From a virus: a stretch of 32,437 nt of DNA. Positions 3,250 to 32,340 of the stretch are shown here, one piece after another. Positions within the stretch are counted from its first letter, which is position 1. Each line of letters starts with the position of its first letter. Below the pieces are notes generated by a model. The model did no database searches and was not told the DNA's origin. It was given only the letters and a program-made list of their open reading frames with translations. The stretch lies in the IMG/VR virus record IMGVR_UViG_3300035430_000064, positions 1 to 32,437 of that record. One strand, 5' to 3'. The position numbers and the translations under genes are program-made.

Positions 3250-6200
3250 TTACCTCTTTAGCACGTTGAATTCTACGTCGCCCGAGAAAAGCGCCGTTGT
3301 GTCTGACGTGCCACCTGCTTTGTTAAATTGCATTCTTGCCTTCACTTTGACGACAGATGAGTTCGTGATTGTAAATCTGTTCAAGAACGTAAGGCCGTTA
3401 GTCGTTGCCGCCCCGCTGTAAATATTTGAGGTTGTGATTGTCAGTGTCTGTACTAACGTATTTAGCGAGTTATAGCAGAGAAGCTGTGTCCTGATATTTG
3501 CTCGCGCATAAGCGCTAAGCATCAACCCGCCGCCACTTGCACGAGGATACAAGAAGCTCGTAAACCTAACGAAAACGGGGTCAGTGTAATCATCAATATT
3601 AAAATAAGAGCTAGTAAAGTGCGTGACATAAGTCGACGAGTTTGCCGCCGTTGTATTTGTAAACCGCTGATTTTGAGATAGGGTGATCGCGTTGCTGGCA
3701 ACCGTGATTGTTCCTACTTGCCCATTGCCAATGGCTCCGCCGCTTATTGAGCCTGTAGCTATTAAGTCACCATCGACTTCGACATTAGCGCTAAAGCTGA
3801 CCGTTCCTGTAGTCGTATCAACTGCGAATGGTGTCGTCGTCTGTGACTCATCTGTAGACACAAGCGCAAATCTGTCTGCCTGTATTGTAAAGCTAGAGCC
3901 AGTGGCATCTGCTGTAGCCTTAAAGCCTGAGACGTTGCCACCAGCACTGACGGTTAAATACGCTTCCGCTTCTAGGTCAGTAATTGAGGTGCTGTTAGCC
4001 GACGCTGTGGTCGATGCGCCAGAAGCAACTGCCGCAGTAGCCGCAAGTCCCGTTGTAGGATCGTTTACAGTAGATGTCAGCGCGGTGATGCTTGACGCGT
4101 TAGAGGTGATATTACCTTCTGCCGTGGTGACTCGCGTTGTAAGTCCAGACACTGCTGTAGCATTGCTTGATATGCTGCCCTCTGCGGTCGTCAAATCAGA
4201 CTGTAGCGTTGTGATATCGCTTGCCTGACTTGTTATCGTGCCTTCTGCACTTGTCAGCCTTACGTCGATTCCAGAAATAGCCGTCGAATTCCCTGCGATA
4301 TCTAACTCAGCATTTGACAGGTCTACTTGCAGTGAAGCTATAGATGTAGCTTGTGAGCTGATAGATCCTTCGTTATTTGTGACCCGTGTGTTTAATCCTG
4401 ATATTGCTGTCGCATTTGCGGACGCATCATTTTCAACATCTGACAAACTGGATTGCAAAGAACTGATGTCCGATGCCTGCGAAGTGATAGACCCCTCTGC
4501 ACTTGTAACTCGTGTATCGATTCCGCTGATGGCTGTCGCGTTGGCGCTGACATTGCTATTTGTCGTCAAAAGGCTGGATTGTAGTGAGCTAATATCCGAT
4601 GCCTGAGAAGTAATCGACCCCTCGGCTGAACTTACCCTCGTAGTTAAATTCGACAGCGCTGTTGAGGTAGCGCTTATCTCATTTTCAGCATCTGACAAAT
4701 CTGATTGTAGCGTTATTACCGAACTGCTTAGTGTTGATATTTCGCCCTCTGCCGCAGTAGTGCGTGTCGTCAATCCGCTGATAGCGCTAGAGTTGCTAGA
4801 GATGTCGCCTTGTGCCGTTAAAAGCCCTGATTGTAGTGAGGTTATATCTGACGACTGAGCAACGATAGATGATTCGGTAGCAGTGACTCGGGTTGTTAAG
4901 CTGTCAATGGCGGTGGCGTTGGCTGATGATTCGCCATTTAAGGTCGTGAGGTCCGACTTGAGTTCTGTTATGTCTGTTGACTGCGTCGTTATTGTGTCTT
5001 CTGCCGACGTAATTCGCGAATCGAGCGTGTTCGTTGCGGCACTCGTGGCAGTAGCCACATCGGTTGGCAAATTAAGTAGAAGGTCGTTACCTGCCTCTGT
5101 GGTAATAACATCATCTGTCTCGCCTTGAATCTTGGTTAAGTCCTCAACGGCAACCTCTAGGGCGGTTATGTTGCTTGCGCTTAGGCTCGTGATATCGTTT
5201 TCGGCGCTCGTGATTCTGGTATCAAGCGTCGATATAGCGCTTGCGTTAGCGGAAACACCCGTCGTCCCATCGTTGACAGTGGATTCGAGTGCCGTGATAG
5301 ATGACGACTGCGAAGTAATAGACCCTTCAGCAGAAGTAAGACGCGTATCGAGTGAACTTACCGCGCTGGCGTTTGCTAAAACTCCCGACGTTGCATCGTT
5401 GACTGTCACCTCTAGCGACGTAATATCTGTTGCATTCGTTACGATGCTATTTTCTGCGGTTGTAACCCGCGTCGTTAGTGCGCCAAGTGCGTTGGATGTG
5501 GCTACGACTCCCGTCGATACATTGTTGACAGTGCTTTCTAGCGCGGTGATGTCTGTTGTGTTGCTGGATATAGTGCCTTCAGCGGTCGTAACGCGTGTGG
5601 TCAACCCGCTCAAAGCGGTTGAGTTCGTCGATATGTCGCCCTCTGCCGAAGTCAGGTCCGATTGCAGTTGGGTAATATTCGACGTGATCGAAGTGATAGA
5701 CCCCTCGGCTGAACTGACCCGCGTATCGAGTCCTGATATAGCCGTTGCGTTCGTCGTGATATCTGTCTGTGCCGTCGATAGACCTGACTGTGTGGTCGTC
5801 AAAGATGACTGTAACGTCGTAACGTCGCTCGATAGCGTGGTGATCGAGTTGCCCTGACTGACTGTGGTTGTGTCGAGTACGCTGATGGCGCTTGAGTTCG
5901 CGGATATGTTCGAGTTTGCTGTGTTTAGCCCTGACTGTAGCGTCGTGATCGCCGACGCGTTGCTCGCAATACGCGGGTCAGCCAGTGACTGCCATGCAGA
6001 GCCATCCCAGTAATAAGGCTCATTGCTATCATCTGAGTCATACCATCGAGAGAAAGTCGGTATTGGATCAGGAACACCGCCAACGCCTGCAACTGGCGCT
6101 GAAGCCTGTACGAATATATCGCTCGTTCCACTAGTTAAATCAACTACAGTCGCTTCAAGGTTTGCCAGCGTCGTGTTAGTCGTGTTAATGCTGTTGTTAA

Positions 6201-8442
6201 TTGTCTGATTGCTTTCATTGACAAAGATCGCCACATCACCAAGATTCTGAATCAGCACGTCCTGACCTGTCTCAAGGTCTAAGACATCGCCCGACTCTAC
6301 TTGCACATTTAGAACATCAACAGCCTGAGCCGCACCGTTAATTAGATCGGCGACAGATGTTTCAATCTCTGTAATAGTGACTGCGCCGCTTGCTATCTGA
6401 GCAGTCGTGACTGCGCCATCGGCAATCTGATTACTGCCAACCGAATCGTCGCCTAAGTCTGACTGAGTTGCCGTGACCGATGTGCCTGAGTTATTGGTGG
6501 TTCCTGTAAATGACCCTTTATTGCCTGAGAAGTCGACCGCTCGCAGAAAAAAGTATTTGGTTATCTCGCCAGCACCTACTGGATGAATGTATTCCTCGCC
6601 TGCGATCTTCCGTGTCGGCGAGTCACCGACCGATGGCACTGTGTTGGCATCTTTGACGTGCACCTCAGTAAACGCATAGTCGAGATCGGTTGGGTTAGTC
6701 CAGGTCGCTGTAATAGCGCGAATGCCGCCAGTAATTCCGCCCAGGGTAACGGCACCAGGTGCAGTCGTATCGCCTATCAGCGTCCTGGTTTCCGTCACAA
6801 AGCCACTGCGAACGCCCAGCGTGTTAATTGATCTAACTCTAAATGTGTATTCAGATCCAACCTTGAGCCCAAACAGGTCGACCGTAGTCTCGCTGGTGCG
6901 CACGAAATTGCTATATGTCGACGCACTTGTAAGAGCCCATTGCACCTCGTATTCGCTGACAAATGCGTCATCCGCCTCTGTCCAGCTTAGGGTTACAGCT
7001 GTTTGAACGCTACCATCAGGACCGAGCGCCGAGTCTTCACTGGCGATTGGCAATGTAGGCGCCGTAACATCAAACGGGTTCGGTAGTGTCGTATCCTGGT
7101 TGTCCAGCTCCTCATCACCCTCAAACCAGGTGTATACGTTGTTATATTCGATCAGCTGCAGATCTACTTCGCCGCTATCCTTGATCCGCGTAGAGACCAC
7201 ACGCATGAGCTGACGGGCCGCTCCTGTCCACCCTAGGCTTGGCTGCTCCAATCGCACAACATCGCCCACAGCGATATCCATGGCCTCTGACGTGGCTGTA
7301 AGCGTTACTGATCGAGTATTGCGCCTGGACGCCTCACATACGATCCTGGCCATCTCCCTGGCCTGGTACAGGCTGGTGATCGTGTTGAGGTTGATCTCGC
7401 GTACCAGCTCCTCGTCATTGTCCTCGCTCAGAAACGTCAGGAAATCGCTATTCGGGTCTGTCGACTTGACGGGATAGGTGACGGAATCCATTTGCCAGTT
7501 GGCTTGAGGATTCGGGAATTTAGCTATGACGCGATTGAAGCGCTTGCCCTTTCCCGCGTCTGTAACCGTTATATCGGACAGTATATTGTCAGGCGTGAGG
7601 TCGAATGTGCTCGTCTCCTCTTTATCGACTATCAGGCCATATTTGCCATCGGTGTATGGCAGCAATCCGCGCATACCCTGCAGCATCTCTTTGACGTTAT
7701 CGAATACAGTCTTGCCAGTATCCAGGCGAGCGTTGCAGTCGACACGAGTGATCGATGGGCCGCCAGTGTATGACGTGACTGTGCCGTCGTATTCGTTCGC
7801 TGCTGCGATGAATTTTGTATCATCGATGGCGCTAGTCGGTAGGCCCTTGCCGTATCGCGTATTAGTCAGATAGTCGCGCAAGCATAGCGCTGGATTGTTG
7901 CTATAGGCCGTTGTGGATGTCCGAGGGTCGTAAACCTTGCGGCCTCTAATAACGCACTGAATCTCTGGTATGCCACCGAAAACGTCCTGGTCGTATTTAA
8001 TTCGTATTGCGAGATATGCAACACCGCGCAGCCTGTGATTAGCGCCCCAGTTATCGTCTGCCCCTGCCAACAAGCTGGCATATTGCTGCCCGTCCGTTCC
8101 GAGCTTTTTAGTGACCGATATCAAGCCGCTATAGTCCGAGTGCGTATGCAGCTTGTCGTTTACATAGATCTGATCGATGGCCTGTATTTCGCCCTCACAT
8201 AGAGCGATCGCCATGTATAAATACTCGTTCTTTTTCTCTCCGCCAGTAGACACAAACACGCGGACACCGCCGACCTTTCTGCTGCCATAAACGACGGGTA
8301 TAGGGTCGATGTTGCTTTGCTTGTTTACCAGTGCGCCCTGGGCCTGATCGTCAAAGTCGTCAAAGTCGACACCAATCAAAAAGCCGACGATGTCGCCCAG
8401 TAGTCCCGTGATGCCTTTTATGATGCTGGAAAAAATACCCAT
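3250..8442 (-). CDS. Lambda J-like tail tip / central fibre protein with long repeat stalk (1730 aa)
   Basis: This is the largest gene of the window. Residues 1-450 form the tip region of the lambda J type (COG4733 style): an N-terminal hydrophobic helix, then IPVVYGSRKVGGVRVF and EYLYMAIALCEGEI. Two fibronectin type III-like domains follow, at about 457-555 and 557-650 (each opens with an APT/APG turn; SEYTFRVRSIN is visible). Residues 773-820 contain a small YYWDGSAWQSLADPR motif. Residues 820-1495 are about 16 tandem repeats of 42 residues with the core 'AISGLDTRVTSAEGSITSQ', Ser/Thr-rich and six heptads long, probably a trimeric coiled-coil stalk. A beta-rich C-terminal domain (about 1520-1730) ends in VEFNVLKR and may contact the host. 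The start overlaps the stop of the upstream L-like gene. Confidence 0.9.
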   Translation of the reverse strand: MGIFSSIIKGITGLLGDIVGFLIGVDFDDFDDQAQGALVNKQSNIDPIPVVYGSRKVGGVRVFVSTGGEKKNEYLYMAIALCEGEIQAIDQIYVNDKLHTHSDYSGLISVTKKLGTDGQQYASLLAGADDNWGANHRLRGVAYLAIRIKYDQDVFGGIPEIQCVIRGRKVYDPRTSTTAYSNNPALCLRDYLTNTRYGKGLPTSAIDDTKFIAAANEYDGTVTSYTGGPSITRVDCNARLDTGKTVFDNVKEMLQGMRGLLPYTDGKYGLIVDKEETSTFDLTPDNILSDITVTDAGKGKRFNRVIAKFPNPQANWQMDSVTYPVKSTDPNSDFLTFLSEDNDEELVREINLNTITSLYQAREMARIVCEASRRNTRSVTLTATSEAMDIAVGDVVRLEQPSLGWTGAARQLMRVVSTRIKDSGEVDLQLIEYNNVYTWFEGDEELDNQDTTLPNPFDVTAPTLPIASEDSALGPDGSVQTAVTLSWTEADDAFVSEYEVQWALTSASTYSNFVRTSETTVDLFGLKVGSEYTFRVRSINTLGVRSGFVTETRTLIGDTTAPGAVTLGGITGGIRAITATWTNPTDLDYAFTEVHVKDANTVPSVGDSPTRKIAGEEYIHPVGAGEITKYFFLRAVDFSGNKGSFTGTTNNSGTSVTATQSDLGDDSVGSNQIADGAVTTAQIASGAVTITEIETSVADLINGAAQAVDVLNVQVESGDVLDLETGQDVLIQNLGDVAIFVNESNQTINNSINTTNTTLANLEATVVDLTSGTSDIFVQASAPVAGVGGVPDPIPTFSRWYDSDDSNEPYYWDGSAWQSLADPRIASNASAITTLQSGLNTANSNISANSSAISVLDTTTVSQGNSITTLSSDVTTLQSSLTTTQSGLSTAQTDITTNATAISGLDTRVSSAEGSITSITSNITQLQSDLTSAEGDISTNSTALSGLTTRVTTAEGTISSNTTDITALESTVNNVSTGVVATSNALGALTTRVTTAENSIVTNATDITSLEVTVNDATSGVLANASAVSSLDTRLTSAEGSITSQSSSITALESTVNDGTTGVSANASAISTLDTRITSAENDITSLSASNITALEVAVEDLTKIQGETDDVITTEAGNDLLLNLPTDVATATSAATNTLDSRITSAEDTITTQSTDITELKSDLTTLNGESSANATAIDSLTTRVTATESSIVAQSSDITSLQSGLLTAQGDISSNSSAISGLTTRTTAAEGEISTLSSSVITLQSDLSDAENEISATSTALSNLTTRVSSAEGSITSQASDISSLQSSLLTTNSNVSANATAISGIDTRVTSAEGSITSQASDISSLQSSLSDVENDASANATAISGLNTRVTNNEGSISSQATSIASLQVDLSNAELDIAGNSTAISGIDVRLTSAEGTITSQASDITTLQSDLTTAEGSISSNATAVSGLTTRVTTAEGNITSNASSITALTSTVNDPTTGLAATAAVASGASTTASANSTSITDLEAEAYLTVSAGGNVSGFKATADATGSSFTIQADRFALVSTDESQTTTPFAVDTTTGTVSFSANVEVDGDLIATGSISGGAIGNGQVGTITVASNAITLSQNQRFTNTTAANSSTYVTHFTSSYFNIDDYTDPVFVRFTSFLYPRASGGGLMLSAYARANIRTQLLCYNSLNTLVQTLTITTSNIYSGAATTNGLTFLNRFTITNSSVVKVKARMQFNKAGGTSDTTALFSGDVEFNVLKR
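3960..5970 (-). repeat. About 16 degenerate tandem repeats of 126 bp inside the tip gene
   Basis: A period of 126 bp (42 codons) is visible in the DNA: near-identical GAAGTxATxGACCCCTC segments recur, for example near 4480 and 4606. Repeats are degenerate in DNA but keep the protein pattern, so selection acts on the stalk structure. Copy-number change by recombination would lengthen or shorten the fibre. Confidence 0.8.
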
Positions 8443-20739: not shown

Positions 20740-21975
20740 TCATAGCGTAAACCTTATGGGCACATGAGCTACTGGCTTGACGATTGGCATCTCATACGCG
20801 ATCGGGTAGGTCGTCGCGTCGTTCTGGTGATCCCGCCCGTTTGACTTGTCAGGCTCGCCATTCTTGTACACCTGCTGCTCCAGGCACTCGGCTGTCACTG
20901 GGCACTTGGCTGCGTTGACCTTAACCCTGCCAGCCTCAAGCGCTGCATTCATCGCCAGGATGCGATCCTTGACCATAGGGTTTCGCTTGTTGACGCGAAC
21001 CCACAGACCAGCCTGCTCCAGTAGTGCGATATCCGACTTGGAAGCGTCGACAGTCTTGCGGCTCTTGCCGCTTGCGTCAGGGTAGATATACACCTGGTTC
21101 TCGCTGTATCGACTCTGAATGATCTTAACCATCTCAGGCGTGTCGTACATATTGACCAGCTCGTCGACAGCGTGCCAGGTACGGCCACCGTCGCGTTGAA
21201 CGTATACGGTCGCTGCCTGCTTGGTGACGTTAAAGTCGCAGCCAATGAATAGCGGCTCGCCTTCTCTGATCTCCTCGTCACTCGCACAAGCGTGACGGTT
21301 GTAGCTCGTATATACCGTTCCTGACGTGAGGTTGACAAACCGACCTTCAAGGTACGCTTGCAAGAGATGATCAGGGTAGGCGTTCTGCAATGACTCGATA
21401 TAGCCGTCAGGCAAATGTGGATTGCTTTTGGTTGGCGCCTGGATGATCTCATAGCCTGGCTTGGCCTCTTTTCGCCATTGCTCGTATACGAACTTAAACC
21501 CCTCGGGCGTTGTCGTCACTCCAATCGTATTGAAACCATTCTTTTTCTGGCGGTTTCTTGCTATTACCTGGCGCCATACGTGAGCAGCGTCATCTCGCTT
21601 CAGTGTATCCAGCTCATCGATATCGGCGTCTGCGTGCTCGTATCCGACTATGCGGCTGGGATTCTCCATCGATCGGAACATGATGGTTCCATAGCCTTGT
21701 ACGTCGATCTGATTAAGAGGCGTCTTTTGCAGCCTATACGGAATCTCTAGCTCTGTGAGGATCTGCTCAAAGCGCGGCCAGGCGATCATTCGTATCAGGT
21801 CATAGGTAGGCTCATAGAATCCGCGATTCACGCCAGGATTAGCGAGAAGGCCCGTTATACAGCGCAAGATGGCTGCCTCTGTCTTACCTGCTCCGAACCC
21901 AGCAACAAAAGCGGGGAACCTTGCCCCCGTCATCATGTATTTATACTGGGGAACCGTTGGCTCAATCGACGCCAT
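20740..21975 (-). CDS. terL: Terminase large subunit (411 aa)
   Basis: The packaging ATPase is clear: Walker A AGFGAGKT at 25-32, Walker B DADIDE at 116-121 with E121 as the catalytic acid, and coupling motif TTTPEG at 153-158. The C-terminal RNase H-like nuclease has GCDFNV (D246), YPDAS and a final DHQNDATTY acidic motif. The protein cuts concatemeric DNA and drives it into the head through the portal. The short length (411 aa) is normal for compact phage terminases. The start overlaps the small subunit by 14 bases. Terminal repeats in this genome suggest a cutter producing direct repeats, but the sequence alone does not prove the packaging mode. Confidence 0.95.
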   Translation of the reverse strand: MASIEPTVPQYKYMMTGARFPAFVAGFGAGKTEAAILRCITGLLANPGVNRGFYEPTYDLIRMIAWPRFEQILTELEIPYRLQKTPLNQIDVQGYGTIMFRSMENPSRIVGYEHADADIDELDTLKRDDAAHVWRQVIARNRQKKNGFNTIGVTTTPEGFKFVYEQWRKEAKPGYEIIQAPTKSNPHLPDGYIESLQNAYPDHLLQAYLEGRFVNLTSGTVYTSYNRHACASDEEIREGEPLFIGCDFNVTKQAATVYVQRDGGRTWHAVDELVNMYDTPEMVKIIQSRYSENQVYIYPDASGKSRKTVDASKSDIALLEQAGLWVRVNKRNPMVKDRILAMNAALEAGRVKVNAAKCPVTAECLEQQVYKNGEPDKSNGRDHQNDATTYPIAYEMPIVKPVAHVPIRFTL

Positions 21976-22252
21976 CAGGCTTAACTATGTTGACTACGAT
22001 GGGAGCTGCTTGATCGTTAATGATGTGCTCTTCCTTCATATCAGGCAGATACTTGTTGAGTAAGCGTAGGCGCTGCTCGTTGGCGACCTTGCGTTTTGTC
22101 AGCTCCTTATCAAACGTCTCTGAGGCCGTATCCAGCTGCTCTATTTTCTCAATGTTATCAAGTATGTATGTAACTGAGCCCCTGCTCGATAAATAGTCGC
22201 GCAGCTCGCTCTGTCTTATAGCTCTATTCTTTTGTGCTGCTGTCTTAGCCAT
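21962..22252 (-). CDS. Terminase small subunit-like protein (96 aa)
   Basis: This is a short helical protein directly before terL and overlapping it. It begins MAKTAAQKNRAIRQSELRDY, has central coiled-coil-like helices (ILDNIEKIEQLDTASETFD) and RLRLLNKYLPDMKEEHI before a C-terminal beta tail. The 'L.KyLPD.K..e.' ending before the large subunit is common in small terminases. The basic N-terminus could contact the packaging start on DNA. The call rests on position and helical composition rather than a diagnostic motif. Confidence 0.72.
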   Translation of the reverse strand: MAKTAAQKNRAIRQSELRDYLSSRGSVTYILDNIEKIEQLDTASETFDKELTKRKVANEQRLRLLNKYLPDMKEEHIINDQAAPIVVNIVKPDGVD

Positions 22253-22451
22253 CGTCGGGATGTCCGATATTTAGCGCCCAATATTCGCCTCTTTCATTAC
22301 CAGACCGAATGACGCCGACAGCGATCTCCCCTGGCTCCATTGGGTAGGTTTCGACAGTACCGTCAGAAAACGCCACCAAATACAGGCCAGGCTCGCGAGG
22401 CATCTCACCAGGAGCCACTGGGCTCCATAGGAGTGTTACGATCTGTTCCAT
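22245..22451 (-). CDS. Hypothetical protein at the head of the late operon (68 aa)
   Basis: The product starts MEQIVTLLWSPVAPGEMPRE and continues with a small beta domain (PGLYLVAFSDGTVETYPMEP, then GERGEYWALNIGHPDDG). An ATG five codons upstream (22466) is in frame, but it lies at the very end of the terminator U-tract. Neither start has a clear Shine-Dalgarno element. The stop overlaps the terminase small subunit start, so it belongs to the packaging block. It is the first gene after the strong terminator. The function is unknown. Confidence 0.7.
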   Translation of the reverse strand: MEQIVTLLWSPVAPGEMPREPGLYLVAFSDGTVETYPMEPGEIAVGVIRSGNERGEYWALNIGHPDDG

Positions 22452-22463
22452 AGGTCTATTGTA

Positions 22464-22504
22464 CATAAAAAAAGACCCCAGGGCCTGCCACGAACCTTGG
22501 GGTC
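22464..22504 (-). terminator. Strong rho-independent terminator before the late genes
   Basis: On the minus strand, GACCCCAAGG (with one G-U pair) pairs with CCCTGGGGTC across an 11-base loop, giving a stem of about 10 bp at 22474-22504. Seven U residues follow, then AUG. It stops transcripts coming from the accessory/early genes exactly at the border of the packaging and structural genes. Confidence 0.88.
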
Positions 22505-22509
22505 AAAAT

Positions 22510-22540
22510 AGGCGAAGCCAAAAGGAATAAAACCTCGCCT
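22510..22540 (-). other. Possible second stem-loop upstream of the late terminator
   Basis: AGGCGA (22510-22515) can pair with TCGCCT (22535-22540) over a 19-base loop, followed on the minus strand by AUUUU. This is too weak to call a terminator alone. It might be part of an antiterminator or RNA switch together with the main hairpin. Confidence 0.3.
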
Positions 22541-22551
22541 AGCCTTGAGCA

Positions 22552-24329: not shown

Positions 24330-24351
24330 TTTTTGTTTCCTTTTGGTTGAT

Positions 24352-24367
24352 GGCGGTGTCCCCCGCC
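24352..24367 (-). other. 5' UTR hairpin of the accessory operon
   Basis: GGCGG (24352-24356) pairs with CCGCC (24363-24367) over a 6-base loop, in the untranslated leader between the proposed start point near 24370 and the ribosome site at about 24337. It may affect mRNA stability or access to the ribosome. Confidence 0.35.
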
Positions 24368-24376
24368 GACAAAAGA

Positions 24377-24405
24377 ATCATCTCAAAACCCCATATAGGC
24401 GTCAA
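24377..24405 (-). promoter_or_regulatory. Candidate sigma-70-type promoter of the accessory operon
   Basis: On the minus strand TTGACG (24405-24400) and GATGAT (24382-24377) are separated by exactly 17 bases. This gives five of six matches for the -35 and four of six for the -10 box. The predicted start lies about 40 bases before the 125-residue gene, in one of the largest intergenic gaps of the genome. Confidence 0.5.
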
Positions 24406-28762: not shown

Positions 28763-28786
28763 GGGGCCTTATAGGCCCCTTTTTTT
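28763..28786 (+). terminator. Rho-independent terminator acting on the plus strand
   Basis: GGGGCC (28763-28768) pairs with GGCCCC (28774-28779) over TTATA and is followed on the plus strand by seven T residues. On the minus strand no U-tract follows the stem, so it acts on plus-strand RNA, although no plus-strand gene is accepted anywhere. The T-run also encodes the last codon and stop of the XRE regulator on the other strand. Confidence 0.7.
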
Positions 28787-29003
28787 ATTTGCTGGCTTTC
28801 TCGAACTCTTCGATTGAGACCCCCAGCGCTTCACAAATGCGGACAGCTGTGACGAATTTCATCGACTCCCCGCATCTCCATTTATGCACCGCCTGGCGCG
28901 AAACACCCAGGAATCGAGCAATATCTGAACTGCTCATTCCCAGGTCATCCTGCAGCGTTCGCAGTGCCCGACCCGTATCGTAGATCGGCTTGCTAGTCGT
29001 CAA
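28785..29003 (-). CDS. XRE-family HTH regulator (72 aa)
   Basis: The helix-turn-helix is plain: MSSSDIARFLGVSRQAVHKW at about 23-42, preceded by RTLQDDLG and followed by a helix with AVRICEALGVSIEEFEK. This is a Cro/CI-type fold with no further domain. It may repress early promoters. The start is TTG, overlapping the stop of the SSB-like gene as TTGA, with GAGG further upstream than ideal; no in-frame ATG is available near. There is no lysogeny module, so a Cro-like timing role is more likely than prophage repression. Confidence 0.85.
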   Translation of the reverse strand: MTTSKPIYDTGRALRTLQDDLGMSSSDIARFLGVSRQAVHKWRCGESMKFVTAVRICEALGVSIEEFEKASK

Positions 29004-31916: not shown

Positions 31917-32126
31917 CTCGTCTGGCTCTTGCTCTAAGGATTCTGCAAGCATATTTACAAACGCGTCACGACCTACTGATAACTGGTCCACGTTGAACTT
32001 TGCGCTTGCTAGTTTGCGGTCTAAGTCTTTAATGTGATTAATCACAGTCTTTTGCTGATCGGTCATGTCCTCAACAAAATACTCTTTATCGTTTACTGTG
32101 ATTGGGGTCTTTTCATTTTTTCCCAT
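31914..32126 (-). CDS. Small helical terminal protein, DUF6447-like (70 aa)
   Basis: The start at MGKNEKTPITVNDKEYFVED is set by TAGGAGATAC upstream; a longer frame crosses the 53-residue gene. It has a short beta hairpin (TPITVNDKEYFVEDM), then two helices with HIKDLDRKLASAKFNVDQLS and VGRDAFVNMLAESLEQE. The plan 'I.v.g..Y.v.dLt..qk......Dl..ki......l.v...A....L...L' resembles DUF6447 phage proteins (identity to be checked). Its function is unknown. The terminal repeat begins inside it, so its upstream half is present twice. Confidence 0.82.
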   Translation of the reverse strand: MGKNEKTPITVNDKEYFVEDMTDQQKTVINHIKDLDRKLASAKFNVDQLSVGRDAFVNMLAESLEQEPDE

Positions 32127-32137
32127 GTCAGTATCTC

Positions 32138-32299
32138 CTACTGTTTTGCTTTGCCGATGTTTACAGCTAGAACCTCTAGCACCTTGTAGAGCTTGGCAAT
32201 CCAAACGTCATCTTTCGGTGTAGGCGTTACAGCCGCGATGATAGACGCTACTGAGATAACGGCTGTTGCTATGTTGGCGATGTCAGAAATAGTTTCCAT
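32138..32299 (-). CDS. Small hydrophobic protein (53 aa), repeat copy 2
   Basis: This is an identical second copy of the gene at 142-303, with the same METISDIANIATAV start, one probable membrane helix and a Lys-rich end. In a circular or concatemeric molecule there is only one such gene. It stands between the 39-residue gene and the 70-residue gene, just ahead of the lysis block. Confidence 0.8.
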   Translation of the reverse strand: METISDIANIATAVISVASIIAAVTPTPKDDVWIAKLYKVLEVLAVNIGKAKQ

Positions 32300-32340
32300 T
32301 ACCAAGGCATCCTATCGTCGTTACTCTTAGTTGTGGTTAA

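Follow-up and report, generated by a model that had tools for sequence, protein, structure and literature searches.

How are the packaging and structural genes of a phage transcribed when a terminator hairpin stands directly in front of them? The question is raised by a stretch of 32,437 nucleotides (hereafter the window), an IMG/VR record of an uncultured marine virus in which every gene recognized by family searches is on the minus strand. In minus-strand order, these genes encode a Sak-like annealing protein, an SSB-like protein, a Cro-like HTH protein, a primase fragment, an O-like replication protein, a helicase, NinB, an exonuclease-like phosphoesterase and a NinG-like nuclease; a run of small genes follows, then the hairpin, then the packaging and structural block. 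A first-pass annotation had described a stem of about 10 bp plus seven U at 22464–22504, had placed this terminator at the early/late border with its U-tract touching the first late gene and, seeing no good promoter between hairpin and terminase, had suggested that late expression depends on antitermination or on a phage-specific promoter that it could not recognize. The stem and the seven U are indeed present, on the minus strand. The elements with which we are concerned are listed below (SD, Shine–Dalgarno sequence).

24377..24405, minus strand: early-operon promoter, TTGACG-17-GATGAT, conserved in relatives; the operon ends at the terminator

24337..24346, minus strand: SD of the early operon's first gene, CCAAAAGGAA; complements the hairpin 1 loop

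22509..22541, minus strand: hairpin 1, an upstream stem with a pyrimidine-rich loop (UUUU..UUCCUUUU); the stem sequence varies and the pairing is kept

22474..22504, minus strand: stem-loop of the putative intrinsic terminator; 10-position stem with one mismatch, fold −15.9 kcal/mol

22467..22473, minus strand: U7 tract of the terminator, invariant in sequence in five lineages

22464..22466, minus strand: AUG directly after the U-run (GUG in L008), probably ahead of the transcript start

22458..22463, minus strand: candidate −10 box TACAAT, inside RTGTACAATA, invariant in five lineages

22245..22451, minus strand: 68-aa gene (MEQIV...) that opens the late block; start conserved in relatives, no SD

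21962..22252, minus strand: 96-aa gene at the terS position, TerS-like by position alone

20740..21975, minus strand: terminase large subunit (TerL), matching PF03237, PF17289 and the PHROGs terminase

Megablast against cultured phages gave no match. A direct repeat of 300 nt (93% identity) occupies positions 10–309 and 32006–32305, at both record ends, so the genome is likely circular or terminally redundant and assembled from slightly different genomes. In the tail region, a very long gene (3250–8442) contains degenerate repeats at 4451–5725, spaced mostly by multiples of 126 nt, where the opposite strand has long open frames. Just behind the Cro-like gene, a plus-direction terminator hairpin (28763–28787; perfect 7-bp stem and T7) is present although no plus-strand gene was recognized. 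The early 5′ leader (GUCGGCGGGGGACACCGCCAUCAACC, 24330–24371, minus strand) is exactly conserved in six related contigs, in which the following gene differs, and possibly has a regulatory function. The 96-aa gene at the terS position (21962–22252) had no family match in Pfam or PHROGs; among close relatives with TerL 91–98% identical, this position is occupied by two unrelated types of gene, L003 and L005 carrying the other type, and the replacement, as the sequences read, is module exchange.

The stem-loop, from 22504 to 22474, reads GACCCCAAGG-UUCGUGGCAGG-CCCUGGGGUC (z −2.0 taken alone). It is a GC-rich hairpin directly joined to a U-tract of at least six, as expected of an intrinsic terminator, and its U7 (22473–22467) is the sole T7 on the window's minus strand. 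A TerL search of viral contigs gave 80 loci; in the five lineages nearest the window (L001/2, L003, L005, L006/7 and L008) the operon-end position of the terminator is kept, one of them having an unrelated hairpin there, and a hairpin followed by U7–8 occurs at the same site in L001, L002, L003, L005, L006, L007 and L008. In four lineages, 37 of the 40 stem cells pair (92.5%) and two pairs show changes on both sides, a covariation count not above that of column shuffles for these four sequences. L008 and L207 carry a wholly different hairpin (AACCCCGCUCACUGUGGGGUU) in the terminator slot, which argues that selection acts on termination and not on sequence. Because the position is kept in relatives, even by an unrelated hairpin, the hairpin at 22504–22474 with its U7 is very likely an intrinsic terminator at the border between the replication/early genes and the packaging and structural genes, much as the first-pass annotation had it. 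The packaging and structural block does follow, but the 68-aa gene and the gene at the terS position come before TerL. With the intrinsic terminators known between phage operons this one shares the GC-rich stem, the U-tract, the operon-end location and the conserved position; it differs from the usual ones in that its U-run leads straight into a −10 box.

It is at this box that the view of a locus lacking any good promoter ahead of the terminase breaks down: the U-run is followed directly by a conserved TACAAT, with 6 nt between it and the likely start codon. This TACAAT matches the sigma-70-type −10 hexamer (TATAAT-like) at five of six positions. All five lineages read TTTTTTT(A/G)TGTACAATA-NNNNN-ATGGAACAG behind the hairpin, and 16 of the 17 positions of the block TTTTTTTnTGTACAATA are invariant among them, as compared with 29 of the 67 third codon positions (43%) of the adjoining gene in the same sequences. 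Since these lineages are closely related, with 68-aa proteins 82–93% identical to the window's, the conservation of the block is limited evidence.

We looked for a −35 hexamer at 16–18 nt and did not find one in this clade, the best match being 2/6 in the window and 3/6 in L207; a −35 inside the hairpin, as it occurs in other viral contigs (see below), was likewise not found. A TG stands directly against the TACAAT hexamer, which is one base too close for a proper TGn extended −10. With neither a −35 nor a TGn element of the sigma-70 kind, the TACAAT site is named here a candidate promoter, outside the canonical class. The earlier suggestion of an unrecognized phage-specific promoter thus came close to our best reading, namely a −10 box with no −35 match. 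From the sequence we infer that TACAAT serves as a promoter, and that this promoter is late.

As to the start codon, an AUG (22466–22464) does lie directly behind the U-run, as had been remarked, but it is probably not where the first late gene begins, since the codon is GUG in L008 and distant homologues begin at MEQ or equivalent; this AUG was set aside. Homologues of the 68-aa protein down to 58–64% identity keep the MEQ (or equivalent) beginning, and AUG 22451 is most likely the start codon of the gene. The MYNRP ahead of MEQ is an open in-frame extension that could be coding. The 68-aa ORF had no family match in Pfam or PHROGs, and tblastn of the protein against cultured phages gave no match. 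AUG 22451 has no SD, its SD pairing being the weakest (tied) among the 43 gene starts considered, and it is alone among the 1030 ATGs of the window, counted on both strands, in having a 5/6 −10 box exactly 6 nt upstream. A −10 box at 6 nt, against an expected ~6 nt, and a missing SD are what a leaderless mRNA would show, and the late mRNA is presumably leaderless from AUG 22451.

More distant relatives retain part of this arrangement. L209–L212 are without the hairpin, yet TG-A-TACCAT (TGATACCAT), 6 nt and ATGGAGCAG keep the same layout; in the still more distant L214 and L217–L229, the succession of −10 box, 6 nt and start was not seen. A conserved structured RNA replaces the terminator in distant relatives (L209, 2880–2984; same site in L211, L213, L214, L217 and L218), upstream of the homologue of the 68-aa gene. 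It has the core ACGGCGRGCYGUGGCGUCGAAAG and two stacked helices that total 15 predicted pairs, 9 of them with changes on both sides, besides a possible pseudoknot (GCCCC/GGGGC). The L209-type RNA had no Rfam match in the sources searched, and Rfam gave nothing at gathering score on 12 related loci or on the L211 RNA; it is possibly a new RNA family.

Junctions of the same kind could be found in other viral contigs. With a hairpin cutoff of −8 kcal/mol or better, and among the matches listed, which are not a random sample and include some related sites, a hairpin was present upstream of T6-N-TG-TATAATA (T6-N-TGTATAATA) at 69 of 103 nonredundant sites and upstream of T6-N-TG-TACAATA (T6-N-TGTACAATA) at 27 of 92 nonredundant sites, against 9 of 108 sites (8%) for the permuted control TG-TAACATA (T6-N-TGTAACATA). 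Where hairpin and TATAAT occurred together, again among the matches listed, 40 of 66 sites had a −35-like hexamer (at least 4/6) 16–18 nt upstream, the chance expectation being roughly 11% if equal base frequencies are assumed; in 31 of these 40 listed sites the hexamer was at 17 nt, inside the hairpin. We also surveyed 269 terminators in 3.9 Mb of loci, excluding the pattern-selected sites, and counted 54 −10 boxes at 2–11 nt behind the T-run, about twofold the number (~26) expected from T-runs without a hairpin. Both the scans and the survey indicate that phages repeatedly place a promoter right against a terminator, an arrangement of which the window represents a variant: other junctions often have their −35 inside the hairpin, whereas the window's has no −35 match.

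The nearest cultured relatives by TerL are the Guernseyvirinae (~51–53% identity); Dhillonvirus B2 (L474) stands at ~42%. In all five cultured relatives examined (Kagunavirus L470, Jerseyvirus L472, phiEap-2 L473, Otaku L475 and Dhillonvirus B2), a terminator is followed by TATAAT or TACAAT and then by terS. These phages thus resemble the window in the order of intrinsic terminator, −10 box, terS and terL. They differ in that their −10 box lies some 7–30 nt behind the T-run, whereas that of the window nearly touches it, and in that a structured leader of ~60 nt follows the −10 box, whereas the window lacks that leader. A promoter behind the border terminator therefore appears typical of this terminase lineage, which makes the case for antitermination weaker. 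The leader before terS in the cultured relatives (L470 2925–2996, L472 1924–1990, L473 1942–2017, L475 1835–1906 and L474 1733–1790) comprises two triloop hairpins, the second always with GAUGGUC. Its role may be that of a leader RNA or of a site recognized by terminase; the L470 leader gave nothing at gathering score against Rfam.

In the open-access literature, we found a single near case of a phage terminator–promoter fusion: in Kayvirus vB_SauM-515A1, promoter p98 comes immediately after terminator t97, and the late promoters of that phage have a long −10 box and no −35 (PMC7698491). Kayvirus 515A1 belongs to another phage family and has another host, p98 is a weak early promoter, and the −10 sequence differs from that of the window. 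E. coli RNA polymerase that is kept on the DNA after intrinsic termination can restart at the nearest promoter (PMC6978380, PMC11347151); this was shown in vitro on other templates, and the near-zero distance of the −10 box in the window would be an extreme case. Post-termination restart and the 515A1 promoters are offered here as analogies for the window element. For the transcript itself, lambda cI has been named as a leaderless mRNA (PMC9031893). The likeness is that of a phage gene with a leaderless transcript; the difference is that cI is a repressor gene and not the head of a late operon. No terminator is known to adjoin cI.

On this evidence we consider it fairly probable that the module border is an intrinsic terminator fused to a late promoter, giving a leaderless late mRNA from AUG 22451. 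RNA polymerase crossing the early small-gene operon, from the promoter near 24.4 kb, would stop at the hairpin and U7. Transcription from the abutting TACAAT would begin at AUG 22451, give or take one nucleotide, and the resulting leaderless mRNA would cover the 68-aa gene, the gene at the terS position, TerL, the portal and the structural genes. As the terminator has an apparent late start signal right behind it, the early RNA probably ends where the late RNA begins, and the two operons would be insulated and separately controlled without a spacer. The missing −35 suggests an activator or other phage factor, a changed polymerase, or a second use of polymerase that the terminator has just let go.

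Other explanations must be weighed against this one. Processive antitermination, whereby polymerase from an upstream promoter would be modified by a phage protein of the lambda Q/N type or by an RNA element, with TACAAT incidental, seems unlikely to us. It would suit the genome place, between the ninG-like genes and the terminase, which is the position of Q and its terminator (tR′ in lambda) in lambdoid phages, and the lack of a −35 behind or inside the hairpin; moreover, the early leader RNA, whose strong conservation does not depend on the gene behind it, might act in cis for antitermination. However, in the proteins that were compared with Pfam and PHROGs, those of small early genes included, no Q, N or other antiterminator and no sigma factor turned up, and a search covering sigma-70-like sites alone found none on the minus strand from 24377 to 22504, the interval ahead of the hairpin in which a lambda-Q arrangement would call for one. 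The window differs from lambda in the Q homologue and, by that search, the close upstream promoter, neither of which was found, as well as in having a −10 box downstream of its terminator, a feature that the cultured relatives share. Antitermination also leaves unexplained the invariant TGTACAATA, the 6-nt spacing to the ATG and the missing SD. We regard as slightly less likely again a plain leaky terminator, with the late block transcribed from upstream promoters and AUG 22466 or 22451 used without an SD, the U-rich stretch helping. Terminators leak and U-rich leaders can assist initiation, and a stem with one mismatch is of moderate stability (−15.9 kcal/mol); but structural proteins require high late expression, the hairpin is kept by selection and replaced in one lineage, and the conserved −10 box would be left unaccounted for. 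Finally, the palindromes lie just upstream of the terminase genes and might be DNA signals for terminase (pac/cos-like) instead of RNA signals. This is very improbable, given that U7 is strand-oriented, that the hairpin sequence is fully exchanged between lineages and that hairpin 1 is missing in L008.

Hairpin 1 itself, which the first-pass annotation had mentioned as an optional upstream stem (22510–22540), proved to be a real, maintained structure at 22541–22509 (−14.4 kcal/mol, z −3.8): its pairing persists in four lineages whose stem sequences differ considerably, L008 being the one from which the hairpin is absent. The two hairpins could be the 3′-terminal part of a small regulatory RNA whose loop UUCCUUUUGG pairs with the SD CCAAAAGGAA and shuts off the early operon's first gene. 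We find this reading doubtful, marginally more so than a leaky terminator, and it is compatible with the terminator–promoter fusion, not exclusive of it. In four lineages, the complementarity between loop and SD amounts to ~8 to 13 pairs; the window's sense strand has a single AAAAGGAA, the SD of the early operon's first gene; and L008, which is without hairpin 1, is also without the CCAAAAGGAA SD and has a different one. There is a weak likeness to two-hairpin sRNAs as well (ncS54, E 0.0024, 22.5 bits vs a cutoff of 43), while Rfam gave nothing at gathering score on the window, which thus contains no member of a known sRNA family by that search. Against shuffled loops, on the other hand, the duplex energies in the four lineages gave P values of 0.006, 0.018, 0.059 and 0.36, for a match noticed after the fact, and another ribosome-binding site in the window (29994) scores higher. 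The SD target side hardly varies, hence no covariation between loop and SD is seen. The pairing of the hairpin 1 loop with the SD is, on these comparisons, suggestive. Highly doubtful in our estimation is a combination of the two ideas, a 100-nt element that would end the early operon, provide a 3′-end sRNA loop covering the SD, and carry a −35-less leaderless late promoter fed by released polymerase.

If terminator and late promoter are indeed fused at the early/late border, no antiterminator would be needed there in this phage group, one compact element being enough to stop one operon and start the other. The junction of hairpin, U-run and −10 box can be found by a simple pattern and would improve operon prediction in uncultured phages. 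It would also be a natural test case for the restart of polymerase at the nearest promoter, which here lies a few bases from the terminator.
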